A DNA stretch of 64,000 bases from Pseudomonas flexibilis (GTDB lineage: Bacteria; Pseudomonadota; Gammaproteobacteria; Pseudomonadales; Pseudomonadaceae), in the NCBI RefSeq assembly GCF_000802425.1, contig NZ_JRUD01000010.1:62001-126000 (forward strand). Direction: 5' to 3'. Each line of letters opens with the position of its first letter. Positions within the stretch are counted from its first letter, which is position 1. The notes beneath the pieces were generated by a model that worked only from the letters and a program-made list of their open reading frames with translations, did not search any database and was not told where the DNA came from. A program made the translations under genes and the position numbers. This document shows, piece after piece, positions 20,010-39,226 of the stretch.

Positions 20010-20921
20010 TTAGCCGGCTGCTGCCGGGCGCATGTAGGAGATGGGAGCGTTCTTGATGTCGTCGAAGGTCACCATTTCCCAGGCATCCTGCTGTGCCAGC
20101 AGGCTGCGCAACAGGCGGTTGTTCAACGCGTGTCCGGACTTGTAGCCATGGAACTCGCCGATCAGGCTGTAGCCCAGCAGGTACAGGTCACCAATGGCAT
20201 CCAGGATCTTGTGCTTGACGAATTCGTCCTCATACCGCAGGCCGTCCTCGTTGAGCACACCCTGCTCATCGACCACGATGGCATTCTCGACGCTGCCGCC
20301 CAGGGCCAGGTTGTGGGAGCGCAGGAATTCGATGTCGCGCATGAAGCCGAAGGTGCGCGCGCGGCTGACTTCCTTGACGAACGAGGTACTGGAGAAGTCC
20401 ACGCTGGCGATCTGGGTGCGACCGTGGAACACCGGGTGGTCGAAATCGATTTCGAAGCCGACCTTGAAGCCGTCGAAAGGACGGAAGGTGGCGCGCTTGT
20501 CGCCGTCCGTGACGGTGACTTCACGCTTGATGCGAATGAATTTCTTCGGCGCATCCTGCTCCTGCAGACCCGCGGACTGGATCAGGAACACGAAGGGACC
20601 GGCGCTACCGTCCATGATGGGCACTTCCGGCGCGGACAGCTCGACAATGGCGTTATCGATGCCCAGCCCGGCCAGGGCGGAGAGCAGATGCTCGACGGTA
20701 TCCACCTTCACGCTGCCGTTGTAGAGAGTGGTCGACATCGTGGTCTCGCCGACATTCTCGGCGGTCGCCTGGATTTCCACGACAGGATCGAGGTCGACAC
20801 GACGGAAGACGATGCCGGCATCCGCGGGCGCGGGCTTCAGGGTCAGGTAAACCTTTTCCCCCGAGTGCAAGCCAACGCCAGTGGCACGGATGACGTTCTT
20901 GAGAGTGCGTTGCTTGATCAT
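20010..20921 (-). CDS. lpxC: UDP-3-O-acyl-N-acetylglucosamine deacetylase
   Basis: This 303-residue LpxC is the zinc-dependent enzyme of the first committed step of lipid A synthesis. Conserved parts include VGLHSGEKV near the start, the zinc-binding [14 protein letters not shown] region (His near 79), and [17 protein letters not shown] containing the second histidine and the aspartate ligands. It starts [15 protein letters not shown]. Length matches the Pseudomonas enzyme. It lies downstream of ftsZ and has its own promoter, so lipid A synthesis can be controlled separately from division. Confidence 0.98.
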
Positions 20922-20972
20922 GGCAGTGGCTGCTGTTGATAGGATTGCGAATACGTGTCAAATGAGGCCGGA

Positions 20973-20981
20973 ATCATAGCA
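20973..20981 (-). promoter_or_regulatory. Probable lpxC promoter (extended -10)
   Basis: On the minus strand TGC precedes TATGAT (20978-20973), an extended -10 box. A weak -35 candidate lies about 17 bases upstream. The leader to lpxC would be about 45 bases. Confidence 0.5.
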
Positions 20982-21032
20982 GACCCGGCCTTAAGTGAAC
21001 ACCAATCAATCCTTCACCCCTCATAGTTTTTA

Positions 21033-22217
21033 TTAATCTGCCTGACGACGCAGGAAGGCCGGAATGTCCAGGTAATCGAGATCTTCCTGGGGGTTCTGCT
21101 TGGCCGCGGTGGACGGACCCGTGCTGCGCATCACCGTTGGCCGGTCATAATCCCGGTAATTGACCGGCTGCTCGGCACGGCCCGCTGCTGCCGGAGCAGG
21201 TGCGGCGGCCTGGGCGACCTGGGTGTTGTCCACCACCTTGACCGGCTTCTCCTGACGCACCTGAGGACCCAGACCGGTCGCCACCACGGTGACATGCAGC
21301 TCGTCGCGCAGTTCCGGATCCACCACGGCACCCACCTTGACGGTCGCATGCTCGGAAGCGAAGGCGTTGACGATCTCGCCCACGGCCGAGTACTCGCCAA
21401 GGGACAGGTCCAGACCCGCGGTGATGTTGACCAGGATGCCGCGCGCGCCCTGCAGGTTGACGTCTTCCAGCAGCGGGTTGCGGATCGCCGCCTCAGTGGC
21501 CTCGCGGGCACGGTTCGGGCCGCTGGCGCTGCCGGTACCCATCATGGCCATGCCCATTTCGGCCATCACGGTCTTCACGTCGGCGAAGTCCACGTTCATC
21601 AGACCTTCGCGCAACATGATGTCGGAAATGCCACGTACCGCGCCGCACAGCACGTCATCGGCCTTGGCGAAGGCCGACAGCAGCGACGCATCCTTGCCCA
21701 GGATGGTCAGCAGCTTTTCGTTGGGGATGGTGATCAGCGAGTCGACGCTCTCGGACAACTGGCGGATGCCCTCGTCGGCCACCACCTGGCGCTTCTTGCC
21801 CTCGAACGGGAACGGACGGGTCACCACGGCTACCGTCAGGATGCCCATTTCCTTGGCGACCTGGGCGATGATCGGCGCCGCACCGGTACCGGTGCCGCCG
21901 CCCATGCCAGTGGTGATGAAGACCATGTCGGCGCCCTGCAGTACTTCGGCGATGCGCTCGCGATCCTCCAGGGCGGCCTGACGGCCTACTTCCGGATTGG
22001 TGCCGGCACCCAGCCCCTTGGTCACACTGCGACCCAGCTGCAGGATGGTGCGGGCGTGCACATTCTTCAGCGCCTGGGCATCGGTGTTGGCACAGATGAA
22101 CTCCACGCCCTCGATGCTGCTGCGCACCATGTGGTTGACGGCGTTACCGCCACCACCGCCCACACCGATGACTTTGATGACCGCACTTGGCGTCACGTTG
22201 TCTACTAGCTCGAACAT
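21033..22217 (-). CDS. ftsZ: Cell division GTPase FtsZ
   Basis: The 394-residue tubulin homologue forms the Z ring. The N-terminal GTPase domain includes IKVIGVGGGGGNAVNHM and the tubulin signature GGGTGTGAAP near 105-114. The T7 loop region contains NVDFADVKTVM. A variable, proline- and alanine-rich linker follows residue 320 and ends in the conserved peptide DYLDIPAFLRRQAD, which binds FtsA and ZipA. A purine-rich ribosome-binding site precedes the ATG at 22215-22217. It is the last gene of the dcw cluster, 48 bases after ftsA. Confidence 0.99.
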   Translation of the reverse strand: MFELVDNVTPSAVIKVIGVGGGGGNAVNHMVRSSIEGVEFICANTDAQALKNVHARTILQLGRSVTKGLGAGTNPEVGRQAALEDRERIAEVLQGADMVFITTGMGGGTGTGAAPIIAQVAKEMGILTVAVVTRPFPFEGKKRQVVADEGIRQLSESVDSLITIPNEKLLTILGKDASLLSAFAKADDVLCGAVRGISDIMLREGLMNVDFADVKTVMAEMGMAMMGTGSASGPNRAREATEAAIRNPLLEDVNLQGARGILVNITAGLDLSLGEYSAVGEIVNAFASEHATVKVGAVVDPELRDELHVTVVATGLGPQVRQEKPVKVVDNTQVAQAAAPAPAAAGRAEQPVNYRDYDRPTVMRSTGPSTAAKQNPQEDLDYLDIPAFLRRQAD

Positions 22218-22265
22218 AATCCCTCTCCTCTCTTCTCGTCTTTATCGCCCACTGCTACCACTTAT

Positions 22266-23513
22266 TCAGAAATTGCCCTGGAACCACCGCTTCATTTTTT
22301 CCAGGACAGAAACACTGGGTTCTTCGTCGTACATGCCCGGGCTCGACACGACGAAGCCTTCGGCCTGTTTTTTCAAGCCGTACAGCAGCAGGCCCACGCC
22401 TGTTGAATAAATGGGATTGCGCACAACATCGATCAGTCCCTTGACGCTGTGCGGAACTCCCAGGCGTACCGGCATATGGAAGATTTCTTCCGCCAGTTCT
22501 ACAGCCCCTTCCATTTTCGCCGTGCCACCGGTGAGCACGATTCCGGCCGGAATCATGTCTTCATATCCGCTGCGGCGAAGTTCGGCCTGGATCAGGGTGA
22601 ACAACTCGTCGTAACGAGGCTCCACCACTTCCGCCAGGGCCTGACGGGACAATTCCCGCGGCGGGCGATCGCCCACGCTGGGAACTTTGATTGTTTCACC
22701 CGCTCCTGCCAGATTGGCAAGCGCGCAAGCATACCGAATCTTGATCTCCTCGGCATACTGGGTCGGTGTGCGCAAGGCCATGGCAATGTCATTGGTCACC
22801 TGGTCACCCGCAATGGGAATAACCGCAGTGTGACGAATCGCACCTTCGGTGAAGATGGCGATATCGGTGGTACCGCCACCAATATCCACCAGACACACCC
22901 CCAGTTCTTTTTCATCCTCGGTCAATACCGCATACGCCGATGCCAGTTGTTCGAGAATGATGTCGTCAACTTCCAGGCCACAACGCCGCACACACTTTTC
23001 GATGTTCTGCGCCGAATTCACCGCGCAGGTCACCACATGCACCTTGGCTTCCAGACGCACACCGCACATGCCGAGCGGTTCGCGCACCCCTTCCTGGTTA
23101 TCCACCACATAGTCCTGCGGCAGGGTGTGCAGCACACGCTGGTCGGCGGGAATGGCCACCGCCTGGGCGGCATCCAGCACCCGGTCCAGGTCGGCACGGG
23201 TCACCTCGCGGTCGCGGATGGCCACGATGCCATGGGAATTCAGACTGCGGATGTGGCTGCCTGCCAATCCCACATAGGCCGAGTGGATGTAGCAGCCCGC
23301 CATCTGCTGGGCTTCTTCCACGGCACGCTGGATGGACTGCACGGTGGACTCGATATTCACCACCACACCTTTCTTCAGGCCGCGAGAGGGGTGGGAGCCA
23401 ATGCCGACGATTTCCAACCGGCCGTCCTCACGCACTTCACCGACCAGCGCCACCACCTTGGACGTGCCGATGTCCAGGCCGACGATCATCTTGCCGCTCT
23501 GCACAGTAGACAT
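22266..23513 (-). CDS. ftsA: Cell division protein FtsA
   Basis: The 415-residue actin-like protein tethers FtsZ to the membrane and recruits later division proteins. The N-terminal phosphate-binding loop is GLDIGTSKVVALVGE, the second ATP-binding loop is VDIGGGTTDIAIF, and the adenosine motif is IVLTGGTAKMEG. The C-terminal amphipathic helix EKMKRWFQGNF is the membrane-targeting sequence. It starts 16 bases after ftsQ ends. Confidence 0.98.
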   Translation of the reverse strand: MSTVQSGKMIVGLDIGTSKVVALVGEVREDGRLEIVGIGSHPSRGLKKGVVVNIESTVQSIQRAVEEAQQMAGCYIHSAYVGLAGSHIRSLNSHGIVAIRDREVTRADLDRVLDAAQAVAIPADQRVLHTLPQDYVVDNQEGVREPLGMCGVRLEAKVHVVTCAVNSAQNIEKCVRRCGLEVDDIILEQLASAYAVLTEDEKELGVCLVDIGGGTTDIAIFTEGAIRHTAVIPIAGDQVTNDIAMALRTPTQYAEEIKIRYACALANLAGAGETIKVPSVGDRPPRELSRQALAEVVEPRYDELFTLIQAELRRSGYEDMIPAGIVLTGGTAKMEGAVELAEEIFHMPVRLGVPHSVKGLIDVVRNPIYSTGVGLLLYGLKKQAEGFVVSSPGMYDEEPSVSVLEKMKRWFQGNF

Positions 23514-23529
23514 AGCTGTCGCTTTCTCC

Positions 23530-24399
23530 TTAATTCACGGCGCCGCCGCCGGCGGCCCGTGTGCCCGCATCCGCCGCCGCCAGCCAGGTGACCGCCAGGC
23601 CGTTGGCATAACGCAGGTCGATGCGTGCGATGTTCTCGATCCGGTCCTTGAGAGTCTTGTCGTGGATGGTCAGGAACCGCCGGACCTTCTCCACCACATG
23701 ATCCCGACCGAGCAGCAGTTCGATGCGCTGCCCACTTTCCTTCGCCTCCAGGGTGGCGAACCAGCTGCCGCGCTCGCGCAGCTCCAGACGTGCGATGGCA
23801 AACCCCTGCGGCCGCAACATCTGACTGAGCACCTGGTACTGCTGCATCATCCCCTGGCGCGCCCGCTCAGGTCCGAGCAACTGGGGCAGTTGCCGATAGC
23901 GCTCGATGGCCTCGAAGGCGTAGGCCTCGCCACGATTGTTCAGCAGCGCACCCTCTCCCCAGCGGGCGATGGGCAGGTGCTCGTTCAATTCAATCTCCAC
24001 TTCGTCCGGCCAAACGCGCCGCACCTGCGCGTGGGCAATCCACGGCAGCGCCTCGAGATCATGCCGCAGACCTTCCAGGTCCACGCCGAAGAAGCGGGTG
24101 CTTACGTAGGGCTCGATGACCCGCTCGACTTCTTCCGGCGCGGTGAAGGTCAGTTTGCCGGCGATGCCGATGCGCGCGATCGGCCGGTCCAAATAAGGCT
24201 GCAACTGCTGGAACAGCGCGACGCCGCCCATCAGCAGCGCCACCAGCAGCAACGGCCAGGTGAAACGCTTGAATGCGCTGAAATCCGGCTTCGGCAAACG
24301 CTCGCGCAGCGGCGTCCGGACCACCGGACGGCTGGCGCCCCGCGGCGCCGGCTTGCGGCCGGGCCCGGGTTGCTGATGACGAAGCAGGATGCTCAGCAT
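23530..24399 (-). CDS. ftsQ: Cell division protein FtsQ
   Basis: This 289-residue bitopic protein has a basic, proline-rich cytoplasmic tail (1-46), one membrane helix (about 47-66), a POTRA domain (about 73-145, starting ARIGIAGKLTFTAPEEV with WIAHAQVRRVWPDEV) and a beta domain. FtsQ bridges early and late divisome components through FtsL and FtsB. The ATG at 24397-24399 is one base from the stop of ddlB, so translation is likely coupled. No motif is lost. Confidence 0.95.
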   Translation of the reverse strand: MLSILLRHQQPGPGRKPAPRGASRPVVRTPLRERLPKPDFSAFKRFTWPLLLVALLMGGVALFQQLQPYLDRPIARIGIAGKLTFTAPEEVERVIEPYVSTRFFGVDLEGLRHDLEALPWIAHAQVRRVWPDEVEIELNEHLPIARWGEGALLNNRGEAYAFEAIERYRQLPQLLGPERARQGMMQQYQVLSQMLRPQGFAIARLELRERGSWFATLEAKESGQRIELLLGRDHVVEKVRRFLTIHDKTLKDRIENIARIDLRYANGLAVTWLAAADAGTRAAGGGAVN

Positions 24400-24400
24400 G

Positions 24401-26779
<2,379 letters not shown>

Positions 26780-26787
<8 letters not shown>

Positions 26788-27850
26788 GGGCCACCTCCAG
26801 GCAGATATCCACCACGTCACGGGTGGCATTCGGCTTGGCCAACGTCCGGGCGGCGGAGCCCATGGCCTCGAGTCGTTGCGGTTGCATCAGTACCTCGTTT
26901 AGCTGCGCGGCCAGCCCGGCCGCATCAGTAGTGGCTTGCGGCAGCAGGACGGCGGCGCCCTCGCGTGCCAGGAATTCGGCGTTGCGGCTCTGGTGGTCGT
27001 CGATGGCGTGCGGCAACGGCACCAGGAAGGACGGCAGCCCGGCGGCGGCCAGCTCGCTGACGGTCAGCGCACCAGCACGGCAGATCACCAGGTCGGCCCA
27101 CGCATAGGCACCGGCCATGTCTTCGATGAAGGGCACCACATGGGCCTTCACCCCGGCCTCGTCATAGCGGGCCTTGGTGATGTCGGCATGGGCGGTACCG
27201 GTCTGGTGCACCACGGCCGGGCGCTCCGCATCCAGCAGGTGGGACAGCGCCGCCGGCACCAGCTTGTTCAGCGGCTCGGCGCCCAAGCTGCCGCCCAGCA
27301 CCAGCAGGTTGGCCTGGCGGCCGAGCAGCGCGGCCCGCGCCGGCACCGCGAACACCTCGCTGCGCACCGGATTGCCGGTGGTGCGACGCTGCGCACCGGC
27401 CGGGAAGGTATTCGGAAAGGCTTCGCAGATGCGTTTCGCAAAGCGCGCCAGCAGGCGATTGGCGGTACCGGCCACCGCGTTCTGCTCGTGGATGATCAGC
27501 GGCACGCCGGCCAGACGCGCGGCGAGCCCGCCCGGGCCGGTGACATAGCCACCCATGCCCAGCACGCACACCGGCTTGAGCTCGCGCACGATCCGGCGCG
27601 CCTGCAGCAGGGCGCCGAAGATCTCGAACGGTGCCTTGAGCAGGGCCTTCAGACCCTTGCCACGCAGGCCGCCGACCTGAATCAGGTGCAGCGGCAGACC
27701 GGCCTCCGGCACCAGGCGGTTCTCGATACCGCGCGGGGTGCCCAGCCAGTGCACGCGGTAACCGCGCGCCTGGAATTCGCGCGCGCAGGCCAGCGCCGGG
27801 AACACGTGGCCCCCGGTGCCGCCAGCCATGATCAGGACATTACCGGGCAT
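26780..27850 (-). CDS. murG: Lipid II synthase MurG
   Basis: The 356-residue GT-B glycosyltransferase adds GlcNAc to lipid I on the cytoplasmic face of the membrane, giving lipid II. The glycine loop near the N-terminus is [14 protein letters not shown]; the second is [13 protein letters not shown]; the C-terminal nucleotide-sugar motif includes [18 protein letters not shown]. Its start overlaps ftsW by 11 bases. Confidence 0.98.
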
Positions 27851-29045
27851 GTATCACTTCCTCCTCGGCAAGATCCTTCTCGCTGAATTCCGTCGCCCCG
27901 CCCAGCAACTGCCGGCGTTCCCAGTCGATGCGCAGCAGCATCGCCAGGCTGACGCAGCAGATCATCAGCGAGCTGCCGCCGTAGCTGAGGAACGGCAGGG
28001 TCAGGCCCTTGGTCGGCAGCAGGCCGACGTTCACGCCGATGTTGATGAGAATCTGACCGATCCACAGGAGGGCCAGGCCGTAGGCCACATAGGCGGCAAA
28101 ATGCTGCTTGGCCTGTTCGGCCCACAGGCCGATGTACAGGGCACGCAAACAGACGAACACCAGCAGCGCCAGGGTGGCCAGCGCGCCGATCATGCCCAGT
28201 TCCTCGGCGAGGATGGCGAACACGAAATCGGTGTGTGCTTCGGGCAGGTAGAACTGTTTCTGGATGCTGTTGCCCAGGCCGACCCCGAACCATTCGCCAC
28301 GCCCGAAGGCGATCAGCGCCTGGGTCAGCTGGTAGCCGGCACCGAACTGATCGGACCAGGGATCGGTGAAGGTGGTCAGGCGCGCCACCCGGTACGGCTG
28401 GGTCTTGACCAGCAGCCAGACCACACCGATGGCCAGACCGGCGGACAGGCCGAAGCGCACCAGGCCCACACCACCGAGGAACAGCATGCCGGCCGCCGCA
28501 CCCAGCAGCACCACGGTGGCGCCGAAGTCAGGCTCGAGCAGTAGCAGCACGGCCATGGGGATCAGCACGGCGATCGGCTTGAGGAACCCGCGCCAGCTTT
28601 CGCGTACTTCTTCCTGGCGGCGCACCAGATAACCGGCCAGGTAGACCACCACGAACACCTTGGCCAGTTCGGAGGCCTGCAGGTTCAGCGGCCCCAGGTG
28701 AATCCAGCGGATCGAACCATTGATCTCGCGACCCACCAGCAGCACCAGCAGGAGCAGGACGAAGGCCGCCGCCAGCAGCAGCCAGCCCAGCCGTTTCCAG
28801 GTGGCCACCGGCACCATGAGCACCACCGCTCCGGCGACCAGCCCGATGAGCAGGAAGCTGCCCTGGCGAATGCCGTAGTGCAGCGGTCCGCTCAACTGGG
28901 CGGCGGCCACTTCCGAGGACGCCGAGGTCACCATCACCAGCCCGAGCCCGAGCAGCACCAGGCAGCCCAGCAGCAACGGGACGTCCAGATCGACTCCCCG
29001 AGGGCTGAGCAGCGGTGACGGCGACGGGCGCAGGAAGGTCATCAT
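27840..29045 (-). CDS. ftsW: Septal peptidoglycan polymerase FtsW
   Basis: The 401-residue SEDS-family protein has about ten membrane helices and polymerises lipid II at the septum together with FtsI. Family landmarks include LLVLLVGREINGSIRWIHLGPLNLQASELAKV (read in parts), AGYQLTQALIAFGRGEWFGVGLGNS and the C-terminal LPTKGLTLPFLSYGGSS. Two adjacent ATG codons (29043-29045 and 29040-29042) are possible; the first overlaps the murD stop as ATGA. A longer frame into murD is not credible. Confidence 0.97.
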   Translation of the reverse strand: MMTFLRPSPSPLLSPRGVDLDVPLLLGCLVLLGLGLVMVTSASSEVAAAQLSGPLHYGIRQGSFLLIGLVAGAVVLMVPVATWKRLGWLLLAAAFVLLLLVLLVGREINGSIRWIHLGPLNLQASELAKVFVVVYLAGYLVRRQEEVRESWRGFLKPIAVLIPMAVLLLLEPDFGATVVLLGAAAGMLFLGGVGLVRFGLSAGLAIGVVWLLVKTQPYRVARLTTFTDPWSDQFGAGYQLTQALIAFGRGEWFGVGLGNSIQKQFYLPEAHTDFVFAILAEELGMIGALATLALLVFVCLRALYIGLWAEQAKQHFAAYVAYGLALLWIGQILINIGVNVGLLPTKGLTLPFLSYGGSSLMICCVSLAMLLRIDWERRQLLGGATEFSEKDLAEEEVIHAR

Positions 29046-30391
29046 GCCGGCAGCGCCTCCACGGCGGCGGCGAACAGACGACCGCGCTCCTCGAAGTTCT
29101 TGAACATGTCCAGGCTGGCGCAGGCCGGCGACAGCAGCACCGCGTCGCCCGGCTCGGACAGCTCGGCACAACGCTGCACGGCCTCGTCCAGGCTGGCGAC
29201 GCGCACCTGTGGCACGGCGTCTCCCAGGGCCTCGGCAATCAGCCCGGCGTCACGACCGAGCAGCACCACGGCGCGGCAGTGCCGGGCCACCGGATCGCGC
29301 AGCGAGGAGAAATCCGCACCCTTGCCGTCGCCACCGGCGATCAGCACCAGTTGGCCGCGTATATCCGCGCCCAGGCCTTCGATGGCCGCCAGGGCAGCAC
29401 CCACGTTGGTGGCCTTGGAATCGTCGTAGTAATTCACCTCGCGGCGCTCGCGCACCCACTGGCAGCGGTGCGGCAGGCCGGCAAAGGTTCTCAGGGTCTC
29501 CAGCATCGGCGCGAAGGGCAGGCCGACGGCATGCCCCAACGCGAGCGCCGCCAGGGCGTTGGCCTGGTTGTGGGCGCCACGGATCTTCAGTTCGCGGGCC
29601 GGCATCAGCGGCTCGAACTGGAAGGCCAGCCACTTCTCGCCCTGTTCCTCGATCAGGCCGAAGCCGCGGAAGTCCGGCTTGCCGAGCCCGAAGGTCCAGC
29701 ACGGCAGCTGGTCGGCCACCAACGGCCGGGACAACGCATCGTCGCGGTTGACCACTACCTGGCGGGCGCCGCGGAAGATGCGGTGCTTGGCCAGGTGATA
29801 GGCCTGCAGGTCGGCATAGCGGTCCATGTGGTCTTCGCTGACGTTCAGGCAGGTGGCCACCTCGGCATTCAGCCAGTCGGTGGTTTCCAGCTGGAAGCTG
29901 GACAGCTCGATCACGTACAGCTCGACATCATCAGCCAGCAGGTCGAGCGCCGGCGTGCCGAGGTTGCCACCCACCGCCACCTTCCGGCCGGCCGCCGCCG
30001 CCATCTCACCTACCAGGGTGGTGACGGTGCTCTTGGCGTTGGAGCCGGTGATGGCGACGATCGGCGCCTTCGCCTCGCGGGCGAACAGCTCGATGTCGCC
30101 GGACAGCTTCACGCCGCGTGCGGCAACCTGTTGCAATGCCGGCGTGGCCAGCGCCAGGCCGGGGCTGACCAGCAGCTCGCTGGCACGGCAGAGGAAGTCG
30201 ACGTCCAGCGCGCCGCAGCGCACCTCCACCTGCGGGAAGTCGCGGCGCAGGGTTGCCAGCTCGGGCGGATTGGCGCGGGTGTCGGCCACCGCAAACGGCA
30301 ATCCCCGGCGCGCCAGATGGCGCACCAGGGACATGCCGCTCTTGCCGAGGCCGACAACGATGCGGAATTGGTCGGAAGCGATCAGGCTCAT
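29042..30391 (-). CDS. murD: UDP-N-acetylmuramoyl-L-alanine--D-glutamate ligase
   Basis: The 449-residue Mur ligase adds D-glutamate. The N-terminal domain starts RIVVGLGKSGMSLVRHL, the ATP-binding loop is ITGSNAKSTVTTL (the family usually has GTNGKST, here GSNAKST as in other Pseudomonas), and YYDDSKATNVGAALAA and the C-terminal LLSPACASLDMFKNFEERG are intact. It starts 13 bases after mraY. Confidence 0.97.
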   Translation of the reverse strand: MSLIASDQFRIVVGLGKSGMSLVRHLARRGLPFAVADTRANPPELATLRRDFPQVEVRCGALDVDFLCRASELLVSPGLALATPALQQVAARGVKLSGDIELFAREAKAPIVAITGSNAKSTVTTLVGEMAAAAGRKVAVGGNLGTPALDLLADDVELYVIELSSFQLETTDWLNAEVATCLNVSEDHMDRYADLQAYHLAKHRIFRGARQVVVNRDDALSRPLVADQLPCWTFGLGKPDFRGFGLIEEQGEKWLAFQFEPLMPARELKIRGAHNQANALAALALGHAVGLPFAPMLETLRTFAGLPHRCQWVRERREVNYYDDSKATNVGAALAAIEGLGADIRGQLVLIAGGDGKGADFSSLRDPVARHCRAVVLLGRDAGLIAEALGDAVPQVRVASLDEAVQRCAELSEPGDAVLLSPACASLDMFKNFEERGRLFAAAVEALPA

Positions 30392-30404
30392 GACATACGG
30401 CGCC

Positions 30405-31487
30405 TCAACGCAGCTTCAGACTGGAAAGACCGATCAGCACCAGGACCACCGTGATGATCCAGAAGCGCACGATCACCCGGGGCTCGGGCCAGCCTTTGAG
30501 TTCGAAATGGTGGTGGATCGGCGCCATGCGGAACACGCGCTTGCCGGTCAACTTGAAGCTGGCGACCTGGATCATCACCGACAGGGTTTCCATGACGAAC
30601 ACGCCGCCCATGATGAACAACACGATTTCCTGGCGGACGATCACCGCGATGGTGCCCAGCGCGGCGCCGAGGGCCAGGGCACCCACGTCGCCCATGAACA
30701 CCTGGGCCGGGTAGGTGTTGAACCACAGGAAACCCAGGCCGGCGCCGATCAGCGCGCTGCAGAAGACGATCAGCTCGCCCGCGCCCGGCACGTAGGGGAT
30801 CAGCAGGTACTGGGCGAAATTGGCGTTGCCGGACAGGTAGCAGAAGATGCCCAGGGCACCGCCGACCAGCACGGTCGGCATGATGGCCAGGCCGTCCAGG
30901 CCGTCGGTGAGGTTCACCGCGTTGCTGGAGCCGACGATCACGAAATAGGTCAGCACGACGAACCCGATGCCCAGCGGCAGCACGGCATCCTTGAAGAACG
31001 GCAGGATGAAGGTGGTCTCGATCGGGTTCTCGGCGGTCAGGTAGAGAAACAGCGCCGCGCCCAGGCCGAACACCGACTGCCAGAAGTACTTCCAGCGGCT
31101 CGGCAGCCCGCGGGAGTTCTTCTCGATCACCTTGCGGTAGTCGTCCACCCAGCCAATGGCACCGAACAGCAGGGTCACGGCCAGCACCACCCAGACATAA
31201 CGGTTGGACAGGTCAGCCCACAGCAAGGTGCTGATGGTGATCGCGGAGAGAATCAGCGCGCCGCCCATGGTCGGGGTGCCCTTCTTGGACAGGTGCGACT
31301 GCGGGCCGTCGGTACGCACGGCCTGGCCGATCTGGCGCAGTTGCAGGGTGCGAATCATCCAGGGCCCGAGCCACAGGGCCAGCACCAGCGCGGTGAGCAC
31401 CCCGAGCATGCCGCGCAGGGTCAGGTACTGGAAGACGGCAAAACCTTTGTGAAACTGTTGCAGGTACTCTGCCAGGAGCAGAAGCAT
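30405..31487 (-). CDS. mraY: Phospho-N-acetylmuramoyl-pentapeptide transferase
   Basis: The 360-residue integral membrane enzyme joins UDP-MurNAc-pentapeptide to undecaprenyl phosphate, giving lipid I. It has about ten helices. Catalytic landmarks are [23 protein letters not shown] (Asp-Asp pair), [10 protein letters not shown] and the C-terminal [13 protein letters not shown] loop. Its ATG shares one base with the murF stop (TGATG). The length equals the usual Pseudomonas MraY. Confidence 0.98.
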
Positions 31488-32857
31488 CAAGGATTCTCCT
31501 CGGGTTCGCACAACGCGGCGACGACCTTGTCCATTGCCGCACTTCTCGAACCCTTGATCAAAAGCGTGGTTTCGCCCCGAGCCTCCTGGCGCAGAGCGTC
31601 GATCAGACCTTGCTGGTCGGCAAAATGTTTCGCACCTTCACCAAAAGCCGCCACGGCATGTGCCATCAACGGTCCCACGGCATACAGCCCATCCACCTTG
31701 CCGACAGCGTACGCACCCACCTGACGATGTCCTTCCTCGGCCCACTCGCCCAGTTCCCCCATGTCACCCAGCACCAGCAGCCGGCGACCGGAGAACCCGG
31801 CGAGAATATCGACCGCGGCACACATCGACAGAGGATTGGCGTTGTAGCTGTCGTCGATGACCCTCAAGCCGCCGGGGGCCAGTTGCGCCACGGCGCGCCC
31901 CTTGACCGGCCGCAGTTGCTCCAGGCCCGAACGGATATGCTCAAGGGAAATACCCAGCGCATGGGCCGCAGCCGCAGCCGCCAACGCGTTCGCCACGTTG
32001 TGTCTGCCCAGCAGATTGAGTTGCACCGACGTGCAGCCTGACGGGGTATGCAAATGGAAGGCCATGCAGCCGCGCGCGTCGCGATGCAGATCGGTGGCGC
32101 GGATATCGGCCTGTTCCGATTCGAGGGAAAAGGCCAGTACACGGCGGGCGCCAGCCCTCTGGCGCCAGATCGGATAGGCCGCATCGTCCAGGTTGAGCAC
32201 CGCCACACCGTCCGCCGCCAGGCCGTCAAGAATTTCGCCCTTGGCTTCGACGATCTTTTCCGGACCACCGAATTCACCGACATGGGCGTTGCCGGCATTG
32301 CTGATGATGGCCACGTGCGGCCGGGTCAGGCCGACCGTATAGGCAATTTCACCCACATGGTTGGCGCCGAGCTCGATCACTGCCGCGACATGCTCCGGCG
32401 CCAGCTCCAGCAGGGTCAGCGGCACGCCCAGGTCGTTATTCAGGTTGCCCCGGGTGGCCAGCACCGGGCCGTGAAGGCCGGCACGCAGGATGCTGGCGAG
32501 CAGCTCCTTGATGGTGGTCTTGCCGCTGGAGCCGGTCACCGCTGCCAGCGGCGCCTTGAACGCATCGCGATTGAGCGCACCCAGTCGCCCCAGCGCCAGG
32601 CGGGTATCGGCCACCACCAGTTGCGGCAGATCCACCTCGGGAACCCGCCGCGAGACCAAGGCCGCCACCGCGCCCTTGGCCGCCACATCGGCAAGATAGT
32701 CATGGCCGTCGAAGCGCGGTCCGACCAGGGCGATGAACAGCTGGCCGGGCTGGATGGCGCGGCTATCGGTAGACACCGCGCCGAATGAGGCATCGCCGTT
32801 TTCCAGGCGCCCCTGCAAGGGCTCGACCAGCTGACTGAGGCGCAGGACTTCAAGCAT
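31487..32857 (-). CDS. murF: UDP-N-acetylmuramoyl-tripeptide--D-alanyl-D-alanine ligase
   Basis: The 456-residue Mur ligase adds the D-Ala-D-Ala made by DdlB to complete the pentapeptide. The ATP loop is [15 protein letters not shown], the central domain has [12 protein letters not shown], and the C-terminal domain has [12 protein letters not shown] and [11 protein letters not shown]. The ATG at 32855-32857 overlaps murE by eight bases. Confidence 0.98.
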
Positions 32858-34312
32858 GAGCGGCCTCCCAGCGCGCCAGGGCGGCGGTCGCCTCGTCAAG
32901 ATCGGAGAAGGGATGGCGCACGCCGGCAATCTCCTGGTAGTCCTCGTGACCCTTGCCGGCCAGCAGCAGCACGTCATCGGCAGCGGCTTCGCCGATCAGC
33001 TGGGCGATCGCCTCGCCACGCCCCGGCACGAAGCGCACCGCCTCGGGATGGACGAAGCCGCCACGGATCTCGTCGAGAATGGCCAACGGCTCCTCGCTGC
33101 GCGGGTTGTCGTCGGTGACCAGCACGCCATCGGCGAGCCGCTCGGCGACAGCGGCCATCAGCGGGCGCTTGCCGCGATCCCGGTCGCCACCGCAGCCGAA
33201 CAGGCAGAACAGGCGACCCTTGACATGCGGACGCAGGGCTTCGAGGACCTTCTCCAGGGCATCCGGCGTGTGCGCGTAGTCCACGACGACCAGCGGCTTG
33301 TCGCCACCGCCCAGACGTTGCATGCGCCCGACCGGACCACGCAGGCGGGGCAACAGGCGCAGGATACTGTCCAGCGAATATTCCATGGCCAGCAGCGTGC
33401 CGATGACCGCCAGCAGGTTGCTGAGATTGAAACGACCCAGCAGCGCGCTACGTAGCAGGCCTTTGCCCTGCGGCGTGATCAGCTCCGCGCTGACGCCTTC
33501 GTCGTCGAAACGAATGTTGCGGCAGTGCACCGCGGCGCCGACATCTTCCAGGCTGTAACCCAGCAGCCGGGCGCCAGGACGCGCAGCCAGCTCACGACCG
33601 AACGCATCGTCGAGATTGATCACCCGGCAGGCCAGCCCGGGCCACTCGAACAGGCGCGCCTTGGCGGCACCGTAGGCTTCCATGCTGCCGTGGTAATCCA
33701 GATGGTCGCGGGACAGGTTGGTGAACACTGCAATATCGAAGGCCAGCGCAGCCACGCGACCCTGCTGCAGCCCGTGGGACGACACCTCCATCGCCACCGC
33801 CTTGGCGCCTGCCCTGTGCAGACGGGCCAGCGTGGCCTGCACGGCCAGCGGGTCGGGGGTCGTGTGCCGGCCGCTTTCCAGGGCGTCATGGAAGCCGGTA
33901 CCCAGGGTGCCGATGATGCCGCAGCGCTGGCCGAGCAGGTCCAGGGCCTGGGCCAGCAGCTGACTGACACTGGTCTTGCCGTTGGTGCCGGTCACACCAA
34001 TCAGGTTGAGGCTGCGGCTAGGCTCGCCATAAAACCGCCCGGCAATGGCCGACAACTGTCCGGCGAGCCCGCGCACCGGCAGCAGCTCTGCGCCCGCCCC
34101 AGCTGACAGCGGCGGCGCGCCTTCAGCTTCATAAGCGACGGCGGCCGCACCATGGGCCAGAGCATCGGCGATGTGCGCGCGCCCGTCCTGGCTGGTGCCA
34201 GGCACGGCGAGAAACAGATCGCCGGGGCGGACCTTGCGGCTGTCCAGGGTCAGTTCACGGATCAGCGTCCCCGATTGGGCCTGGGGAAGCAGTTGGTTGA
34301 GCGGCATGGGCA

Positions 34313-34313
<1 letters not shown>
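32850..34313 (-). CDS. murE: UDP-MurNAc-tripeptide synthetase (meso-DAP-adding)
   Basis: The 487-residue Mur ligase adds the third peptide residue. The ATP loop is VTGTNGKTSVSQLLA, and the substrate motif DNPRSE (in TDDNPRSEEP) indicates meso-diaminopimelate specificity, as expected in Gram-negatives. VVDYAHTPDALEKVL and LLAGKGHEDYQEI are also intact. Two start codons six bases apart are possible; the first shares a base with the ftsI stop. Confidence 0.98.
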
Positions 34314-36317
<2,004 letters not shown>

Positions 36318-36321
<4 letters not shown>

Positions 36322-37259
36322 CGCAACTTCTCCGCCACACGCATCACCGCGCTGCGTGAGCGCGGATTGGCACGGACTTCGGCCTCGGAGGCATATTGTG
36401 GCTTGCCGAGCAGCTTCAGACGCGGCTCGAAGGCCTTGGGAATAATCGGCAGATCGCGAGGCAGCGTATCGGCCTCGCCCTTGGCCTGGCGCCGCATGAA
36501 CTGTTTGACGATGCGATCTTCGAGGGAGTGGAAGCTGATCACCACCAGACGTCCGCCCACCTCAAGCACGTCGAGGGCTGCCTCGAGCCCCTGCTCCAGA
36601 TCGCCCAGCTCGTTGTTGATATGGATGCGCAGCCCCTGGAACGCCCGCGTGGCCGGGTTCTTGCCCTTCTCCCAGGCCGGGTTGGCCTCGGTGATCACCG
36701 CGGCCAGGTCGGCCGTGCGGGTAAAGGGCTTCTCGGCGCGCCGCTGGACGATGGCCTTTGCCATGCGCCGGGCGAAACGCTCCTCGCCGTAATCTTTGAA
36801 GACCCGGGCAATTTCCTCTTCATCAGCCGAAGCGATCCAGTCGGCGGCGCTCTGTCCCAGCCCCGGATTCATGCGCATGTCCAGCGGACCATCATTGAGG
36901 AAGCTGAAGCCGCGCTCGGGATCGTCCAGTTGCGGGGACGACACGCCGAGGTCCAGCAGTACGCCGGCGATGCGCCCCTGTAGGCCCTGCTCGGTCACGG
37001 CCTGGCCGAGCTCGGCGAAGCTGCGTTGCACGATGGTGAAGCGCGGGTCTTCAGCCATCAGCGCCTGCCCGGTGGCGATGGCCAGGGGATCCTTGTCGAA
37101 GCCGAGCAGGTGCCCCCGCTCGTTCAGCTGTTCGAGAATACGGCGACTGTGACCGCCGCGTCCGAAGGTGCCGTCCAGATAGCAGCCGTCCGGACGCACG
37201 CCCAGCGCGTCGACGGCTTCCTCCAGCAATACGGTGATGTGGCGAAAGGTGCTGGTCAT
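36318..37259 (-). CDS. rsmH: 16S rRNA m4C1402 methyltransferase RsmH (MraW)
   Basis: The 313-residue SAM-dependent methyltransferase modifies N4 of C1402 in 16S rRNA. The N-terminal [13 protein letters not shown] and SAM-binding [16 protein letters not shown] are typical, as are [21 protein letters not shown] and the C-terminal [17 protein letters not shown]. The ATG at 37257-37259 lies two bases after mraZ; a GTG six bases earlier overlaps the mraZ stop (GTGA) and is also possible. Its partner on the other modification of C1402, RsmI, is encoded nearby. Confidence 0.97.
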
Positions 37260-37261
37260 AG

Positions 37262-37717
37262 TCACAGAGTCAGATCGAGCAATTCAGCCGGCATACCGCC
37301 GGGCTTCTTGACGGCTTCACGGTCGGCCTGCTCCATGGCGTTCCAGGCTTGTTCATCCCACAGCTGAAACTTGTTCAGCTGGCCTACCAGCATGACGTGC
37401 TTGTCCAGGCCAACGTACTCGCGCAGCCGCGGCGGTATCAGCAGGCGCCCGCTGCCATCCAGCTCCAGGTCAACGGCGTTGCCGATCAGCAGACGCTTCA
37501 GGCGGCGGGTTTCCTCGTGCAGCGAAGGCAGAGCGCACAGCGTGGTCTCGATCCGCTCCCATTCGGGCAGGGGGTAGATGCACAGGCAGGGATCCAACGC
37601 GTCGACAGTCACCACCAACTGGCCACCACAGCGCGAAGAGAGCTCGTCACGATGCCGACTCGGCATTGCGAGGCGCCCCTTGGCATCCAGGCTGACTGCG
37701 TTGGCTCCGCGAAACAC
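37262..37717 (-). CDS. mraZ: Transcriptional regulator MraZ
   Basis: The 151-residue protein has two AbrB-like half-domains, each with a [14 protein letters not shown] signature ([19 protein letters not shown] at the start and [17 protein letters not shown] near 85-100). MraZ forms a ring-shaped oligomer that represses its own dcw promoter by binding direct repeats. The start is GTG (37715-37717). Three matching repeats are present upstream. Confidence 0.96.
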
Positions 37718-37761
37718 GTCGACGCTTCCCCACTCTGATTAGCTGGTCATGCCTGCACTAC

Positions 37762-37787
37762 CCACTTCCTGCCACTTTGCACCACTT
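37762..37787 (-). promoter_or_regulatory. Probable MraZ operator: three 10-bp direct repeats
   Basis: On the minus strand AAGTGG occurs three times at exact 10-base intervals (37787-37782, 37777-37772, 37767-37762), each followed by four variable bases. They begin seven bases beyond the -10 box and so cover the predicted transcription start. Known MraZ sites in other bacteria are TGGG-like repeats with the same 10-base period. Confidence 0.8.
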
Positions 37788-37793
37788 GAACAC

Positions 37794-37823
37794 ACTATAG
37801 GAACGCGCCTTGCCCAGCGTCAA
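37794..37823 (-). promoter_or_regulatory. dcw cluster promoter upstream of mraZ
   Basis: On the minus strand a -35 box TTGACG (37823-37818) and a -10 box TATAGT (37799-37794) are separated by 18 bases. This is a strong sigma-70-type promoter for the mraZ-to-ftsZ transcript. Confidence 0.8.
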
Positions 37824-38011
37824 GGTTGCCCAAAGGCAGAAAACCCTTGCAGGCCAGGAATTTAGCGACGAGTGGAAATATTTGAGACGAAGCGCAAAAG
37901 GCGCCCGCCGCACGATAGCGATGGCGTTTATGTGGATAGGGCAGGAACTTGAAGCATTGCCTTAACTGCGCGACGCAGGATATCCGCCAGGGTGCGGATG
38001 GAAATAAAAAG

Positions 38012-38358
38012 AGAGAGTCAGCCTGTAAGCCGGGTTCTGTCGAGGACAGTCATTCATCTACGATGGCCATCACTGACCACCTCTAGCAACCTACCCGGAT
38101 CCAGCGCGGGCCACGCCAATGGATCCCTATTTGGTCTTGCTCCGAGTGGGGTTTGCCTAGCCACGGACTGTTACCAGCCGTGCGGTGCGCTCTTACCGCA
38201 CCTTTTCACCCTTACCGGCGCTTGCGCGCTTAGGCGGTAGTTTTCTGTGGCACTTTCCGTAGGCTCGCGCCTCCCAGGCGTTACCTGGCACTCTGCCCTG
38301 CGGAGCCCGGACTTTCCTCCCCCTTCTTGCGAAGGCGGCGACTGCCCGGCCGACTCTC
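38012..38358 (-). ncRNA. rnpB: RNase P RNA (class A)
   Basis: The minus strand carries the catalytic RNA of RNase P, which trims the 5' ends of tRNA precursors. The 5' and 3' ends pair to form P1 (AGAGTC near 38357 with GACTCT near 38013). The universally conserved core is visible: GAGGAAAGTCCGGGCTCC near the 5' end, ACAGAAAACTACCGCC, GGGTGAAAAGGTGCGGTAAGAG, GGTAACAG and, near the 3' end, GATGAATGACTGTC and ACAGAACCCGGCTTA. A T-rich stretch follows the 3' end at about 38011-38002, acting as terminator. The 5' end lies only about 10 bases after the rsmI stop codon, so its promoter must lie inside rsmI unless it is cut from a longer transcript. Exact ends are estimates. Confidence 0.96.
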
Positions 38359-38368
38359 GGCGCGAAGG

Positions 38369-39226
38369 TTACTTGGATTGCCGCTCCAGCGCCACCTGGT
38401 AGAGGAGATTCTTGCGCGCCCCGGTGATCTCCGCCGCCAACGCCGCCGCACGCTTGACTGGCAGCTCGGCCAGCAGCAGATCCAGCACCCGCAGGGCTTC
38501 GGCAGAGACCGCCTCGTCCCCCTCGGGTGCCTGCCAGCCAGCCACCAGCAGGACGCACTCACCACGCTGCTGATTGGCATCGGCGCGCACCCATTCACAC
38601 AGCTCGCCCGCCGGCAGCCCCTTGAGCGTCTCGAACGTCTTGGTCAGTTCGCGGGCCAGCACGACCTGCCGCTCGGCGCCCAGCGTGTCGCGCAGTGCTT
38701 CCAGACTTTCCAGCAGACGATGCGGCGCCTCATAAAAGATGAGCGTGCGCGGCTCCTCGCGCAGCGCCTCCAGGCGCGCCCGCCGACCGGCGGCCTTGGC
38801 AGGCAGGAAGCCCTCGAAGATGAAGCGGTCGGATGGCAACCCGGCCGCGGACAGGGCCGTGATCAGCGCACTGGGTCCGGGCACCGGCACCACGCGAACC
38901 CCTGCCGCGCGCGCCTGGCGCACCAGATGGAAGCCCGGATCCGAGATCAGCGGTGTTCCGGCGTCCGAGATCAATGCCACGTCATCCCCGGCCAGCAGGC
39001 GACTCAGGAAACGCCCCCCCTGCTCGCGCTCGTTGTGTTCATGGCAGGCCTGCAGTGGCGTCGTGATCCCGAAGTGCTGCATCAGGCGCTGGGAATGACG
39101 CGTATCCTCGGCGGCGATCAGGGCCACATCGCCCAGGACGCGCAGCGCCCGCGCGCTGATGTCGTCGAGATTGCCAATGGGCGTGGCTACCACATACAGC
39201 ACGCCAGCGGACGTCGGGTCGGCCAC
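38369..39226 (-). CDS. rsmI: 16S rRNA 2'-O-methyltransferase RsmI
   Basis: The 285-residue methyltransferase modifies the ribose of C1402 in 16S rRNA. Typical segments are [51 protein letters not shown] and [19 protein letters not shown]. The start is a GTG (39224-39226) preceded by GGAGGTG; a longer frame upstream crosses the lpoA promoter and is non-coding. It is divergent from lpoA, as in other Pseudomonas. Confidence 0.96.

Follow-up and report, generated by a model that had tools for sequence, protein, structure and literature searches.

A phased repeat array downstream of the division and cell wall promoter of Pseudomonas flexibilis, very probably the operator of MraZ

Introduction

In Pseudomonas flexibilis, three copies of the motif AAGTGG follow one another at 10-base-pair (bp) spacing between the promoter of the division and cell wall (dcw) gene cluster and mraZ, its first gene. 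The question raised by this locus is whether the repeats are the site through which MraZ, the presumed autorepressor, controls its own cluster, or whether they have some other role at the promoter. The locus lies within a 64,000-nucleotide stretch of contig NZ_JRUD01000010.1 (assembly GCF_000802425.1, positions 62,001 to 126,000), referred to here as the window; positions are given in window numbering, and all features of the locus are on the minus strand. Very probably the array serves the dcw cluster as its MraZ operator, to which an MraZ multimer binds and through which mraZ-rsmH-ftsL-ftsI and further genes are negatively autoregulated. The operator is real, strongly conserved in Pseudomonas and beyond, and of an already known kind. 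What the comparison provides is a clean demonstration that extends a known autoregulatory site to the Pseudomonas family, with comparative evidence of its dependence on mraZ. No description of an MraZ operator in the Pseudomonas family was found in the literature searched, most subscription journals being outside its coverage.

Results and Discussion

Promoter and repeat array upstream of mraZ

A consensus scan of positions 37400-38400 returned a single sigma-70-like site with 10 of 12 matches, consisting of a -35 hexamer TTGACG (37818..37823) and a -10 hexamer TATAGT (37794..37799). The 18-nucleotide (nt) spacer lies in the range of 16-18 nt sought for such promoters. The AAGTGG units begin 6, 16 and 26 nt past the -10 and belong to three 7-nt boxes separated by 3-nt spacers, namely box 1, CAAGTGG (37782..37788, with AAGTGG at 37787-37782), box 2, AAAGTGG (37772..37778, AAGTGG at 37777-37772) and box 3, GAAGTGG (37762..37768, AAGTGG at 37767-37762). 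They thus form a direct-repeat array with a GTG core in each box and a 10-bp period, located between the promoter and the mraZ start codon. This promoter with its three repeats had been described in an earlier, purely sequence-based account of the window (the original prediction) and was recovered here as described. Two details of that account needed amendment. It had the repeats covering the predicted start of transcription; by the rule of thumb that places the start about 7 nt past the -10, this holds for box 1 alone, the other two boxes being further downstream. It had also counted three repeats, and while three AAGTGG units are present, a fourth GTG in phase with box 1 (unit 0, 37793..37795) was overlooked inside TATAGTG, where it overlaps the -10. 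The sequence GTGGGG at 37733-37728, before the start codon, was considered as a further box and rejected, being 32 bp from box 3 and out of phase; it is probably the ribosome-binding site.

MraZ is a ring-forming AbrB-like protein, and the layout suggests how it might act here. Immediately behind the sigma-70 promoter, the boxes all face the same side of the helix, and they extend from the predicted start of transcription to about +26, so that a ring-shaped MraZ multimer could occupy them side by side. Such binding over the start should block promoter opening or escape, and MraZ would in this way lower its own synthesis together with that of the co-transcribed genes mraZ-rsmH-ftsL-ftsI and further. 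The original prediction had this autorepression extending over the entire division and cell wall cluster, a reach that is an inference.

Conservation in the family, class and phylum

An MraZ match was present in 145 of 148 genomes of the family Pseudomonadaceae. The upstream regions of 110 of these 145 were read (30 + 80 loci), and one with a divergent MraZ (G003, see below) was set apart, leaving 109 regions. At least three in-phase GTG units were found in 108 of the 109 and at least four in 102; the full pattern TATAGTG-N7-GTGG-N6-GTGG-N6-GTGG is present in 99 regions, and three exact AAGTGG units in 72. TATAGTG itself is present in 107. In an alignment with one sequence per genus (17 genera), TATAGTG, AAGTGG of boxes 2 and 3, and GTGG of box 1, which is also conserved in position, reach maximal information, whereas the spacers do not; the -35 hexamer is conserved in the same alignment. 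Among the 107 regions with TATAGTG, boxes 1 and 2 always lie 10 bp apart; boxes 2 and 3 do so in 104, and in the other 3 they are separated by 20 bp. These distances were read by hand in three genomes (G011, G073 and G126) where an extra GTGG confused the counting script. In the g13 loci L077, L078 and L084, box 3 has decayed to an AAGGG-type sequence and a further AAGTGG lies exactly 20 bp from box 2, the phase being preserved across the lost box. The g17 loci L066, L071 and L073 carry one box more than the window, with a GTGG 10 bp past box 3.

Conservation of three repeats at 10-bp spacing before mraZ in several Pseudomonas had been proposed as a check of the original prediction, and the check came out in its favour. 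The best 80 of 530 named loci, which are mostly from Pseudomonas and among which is P. aeruginosa PA7, all have the full pattern, in 28 distinct forms; several of these loci are from genomes also included in the family set.

Outside the family, 30 loci from 27 families of the class were examined over the 250 bp before mraZ, these being the top scorers among the 163 of 185 genomes that gave a match. Of the 30 loci, 26 carry three or more GTG at period 10, and all have two or more GTGG. At no other period tested in the range 5 to 16 did any of the 30 class loci have three GTG, and shuffled sequences gave a mean of 0.04 loci in 30 with three GTG at period 10 and a maximum of 1. In the phylum set the start of MraZ was located in 26 of 30 loci (L238, L243, L253 and L257 were left unscored), and 19 of these 26, some of which belong to the family of the window or are the window itself, carry at least three units.

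Loci without mraZ

Natural losses of mraZ offer a deletion test of the array. We sought rsmH in 29 genomes without detected mraZ (20 + 9, same class) and obtained 20 loci, which together with two members of the family, G027 and G050, gave 22. The repeat array was found in none of these 22 loci within the 600 bp searched before rsmH, the result for L279 being a weaker negative with about 515 bases available; in 10-bp phase, the most that any of them shows is one GTGG or two GTG. The array thus occurs in 26 of 30 class loci with mraZ and in 0 of 22 without it (Fisher p 1e-10, kinship uncorrected). In G027 and G050 (L117 2640-2720, minus strand, and L119 1205-1260, plus strand), mraZ has been lost and the repeats are absent, and the promoter TTGACG-18-TATAGT has been kept. 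A third genome of their genus, G011, has both mraZ and the array; a fourth, G038, gave no rsmH match and so could not be used. The repeats are tied to MraZ by this pattern, since the array is conserved where mraZ is present and absent where it is not, even with the promoter kept in two relatives. That the boxes serve MraZ, as they appear to do, is supported most strongly by this loss of the array.

The region set apart above may tell a related story. G003, a small-genome member of the family (L120 2478-3230, minus strand), has as its sole MraZ a divergent protein of 250 amino acids whose additional sequence is partly inserted and partly C-terminal, and in place of AAGTGG its locus carries three TGGG at exactly 10-bp spacing, as if the protein and the operator had changed together.

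Alternative explanations

Several observations weigh against an autorepressor operator. Two units only are present in 6 of the 26 scored phylum loci, and in L242, from another family, MraZ is present but the 250 bases upstream contain no two GTG in phase. The class loci with mraZ are biased toward canonical MraZ because the best-scoring ones were taken. G027 and G050 share one genus and may reflect a single loss. For this organism, binding and repression are themselves inferred. Finally, in a paper citing Fisunov 2016, MraZ is called an activator in mycoplasmas, and MraZ could likewise bind the array in P. flexibilis and activate or merely fine-tune the promoter. We regard this as improbable, given that repressors usually bind where these boxes lie, across the predicted start of transcription, and that a repressor role is reported for MraZ of Escherichia coli and Mycoplasma genitalium.

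Within the initially transcribed region, the G-rich repeats might instead fold as a G-quadruplex and not serve as MraZ boxes. Every box in the window contains a GG tract, and a G-quadruplex of the Staphylococcus aureus mraZ promoter forms in vitro according to PMC11796246. The conserved letters, however, are AAGTGG and not merely GG, and they are held at an exact 10-bp phase for which a quadruplex has no need. The long spacers between the GG pairs would be expected to give only a weak quadruplex, and none of the 22 loci lacking a detected mraZ has the array, including those that retain the promoter. A quadruplex is accordingly a very improbable explanation of the repeats. Least credible of all is the idea that the repeats, most of which lie within the predicted transcript, are promoter-downstream or leader-RNA elements acting on transcription or translation independently of MraZ, since the two relatives without mraZ keep the promoter and rsmH but not the repeats, and since the phase is one of DNA and is held even where a box is lost (the 20-bp gap in g13).

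The MraZ protein

The gene behind the promoter (37262..37717, GTG start, 151 amino acids) is mraZ by its Pfam match (PF02381, E 8e-36). PF02381 matches its product in two stretches, corresponding to two AbrB-like MraZ domains, each with the DxxxR motif of the family; the two motifs read DAKGR and DGSGR, of the form DxxGR. Residues D11, G14, R15, D87 and R91 are invariant across 36 aligned MraZ sequences. The MraZ of G001, the only other genome of the genus searched, is 81% identical to that of the window. The AlphaFold model (predicted local distance difference test, pLDDT, 94.3) has the MraZ fold and superimposes on 1n0e_C with Z 20.5 and a root mean square deviation (rmsd) of 2.3 over 137 aligned residues, and on 9sz7_H with Z 19.7 and rmsd 2.4 over 138. 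The model resembles M. genitalium MraZ, for which the titles of cryo-electron microscopy entries 9r4j and 9sz7 name structures in complex with the protein's promoter and with a '4 box promoter'. The other structural matches (VIA-align), to FliY, FliM and B3 domains, are weak (Z at most 5.3) and were not used.

Uniqueness of the array in the genome

The only exact match to GTGG-N6-GTGG-N6-GTGG in the window is the operator site. With one mismatch allowed there are two matches, both at the site, against 0.89 expected from shuffles, and the loose pattern alone is therefore not significant in the window. In the 3.76-Mb genome the pair AAGTGG-N4-AAGTGG is found exactly only at the operator site, as two overlapping matches. 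Four other matches with one mismatch each bring the total to 6, against 17 for the reversed-pattern control. The triple AGTGG-N5-AGTGG-N5-AGTGG with at most two mismatches gave three matches in the same 3.76 Mb (two for the reversed-pattern control), of which one is the operator site, another the same site shifted by 10 bp, and the third a two-mismatch match that lies within open frames. Because the exact pair occurs only here and the triple scan adds a single two-mismatch site, the operator appears to be the sole one in the genome. As further MraZ targets none of the additional matches is credible; the one-mismatch pairs and the two-mismatch triple fall in long stop-to-stop frames, with L003 at the edge of one.

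Comparison with known MraZ sites

Enterobacterial MraZ sites are worded as TGGG, and the original prediction held that the half-site in P. flexibilis differs slightly from them. This did not stand. Upstream of mraZ in E. coli K-12, GTGG occurs three times at 10-bp spacing, so that both arrays share the GTGG register and the period, and because the E. coli boxes read GTGGG the supposed difference is mostly a matter of how the box is cut. The E. coli operator, which Eraso and co-workers are said to have described before mraZ (Pmra) in 2014, is also alike in that its GTGGG repeats, spaced at 10 bp, follow a sigma-70 promoter and precede mraZ-rsmH. It differs in that a G follows each GTGG, whereas only box 3 has that G in the window, and in that its -10 region contains no GTG, unlike the TATAGTG seen here.

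The layout is that of Burkholderia cenocepacia PmraBc, where, according to PMC7761207, four 7-nt repeats with 3-nt spacers lie over the mapped start of transcription and purified MraZ gives a band shift; the same source mentions an MraZ octamer. Both sites have the 7+3 arrangement past the -10, placed across the transcription start (a predicted one in the window), whereas PmraBc has four repeats and the window has three plus the GTG inside the -10. In Mollicutes the MraZ box is AAAGTG[T/G] (Fisunov et al. 2016, as quoted in PMC8475190). Going by that quotation, Mollicutes and the window share the letters AAAGTGG, the direct repeats and a sole genome occurrence before mraZ, and they differ in phylum and promoter context.

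In S. aureus, a 2025 paper describes G-tracts behind the mraZ promoter as a drug-targetable G-quadruplex, and the phrase 'MraZ binding' is absent from its main text (PMC11796246). As given there, the G-rich tract lies downstream of the mraZ promoter, in the position expected of MraZ boxes. These tracts may be MraZ boxes, and the present comparative data offer a check on the drug-target claim.

The GTG inside the -10

When read by hand, 102 of the 107 family regions that contain TATAGTG have the GTG of unit 0 in phase with box 1; the script had counted 100, to which G011 and G073 were added. Five genomes, from three genera, have a distance of 8, 9 or 11 bp between unit 0 and box 1, and in them boxes 1-3 stay in phase. 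Unit 0 may have a role as promoter sequence, as an optional box, or as both; that it belongs to the promoter is suggested by the slip of 1-2 bp in its spacing to box 1 while the boxes hold their phase. A bolder proposal is that in most Gammaproteobacteria the operator enters the promoter, with the last two bases of the -10 and the next base forming a fourth GTG, so that MraZ and sigma-70 would compete for these bases and both would constrain the -10. In its favour, the -10 of G027, which has no mraZ, reads TATAGTT and could be viewed as freed, although that of G050, likewise without mraZ, is still TATAGTG. The 1-2 bp phase slips in three lineages weigh against it, and we consider the proposal doubtful.

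Gene cluster and neighbours

The dcw cluster of the window is complete from mraZ, at its head, to lpxC. Following mraZ are rsmH (mraW; 36318..37265, Pfam PF01795), ftsL (36034..36321, PF04999) and a gene for an ftsI-type penicillin-binding protein (34313..36037, PF00905/PF03717). The remainder of the cluster (20010..34313) comprises Mur ligases, an mraY-type transferase, ftsW, murG, ftsA, ftsZ and lpxC, an identification that excludes the open frames 24401-25339 and 23530-24399. The upstream neighbour of the promoter is rnpB, encoding the class A RNA of RNase P (38010..38357, Rfam RF00010), which still adjoins rsmH in G027 and G050.
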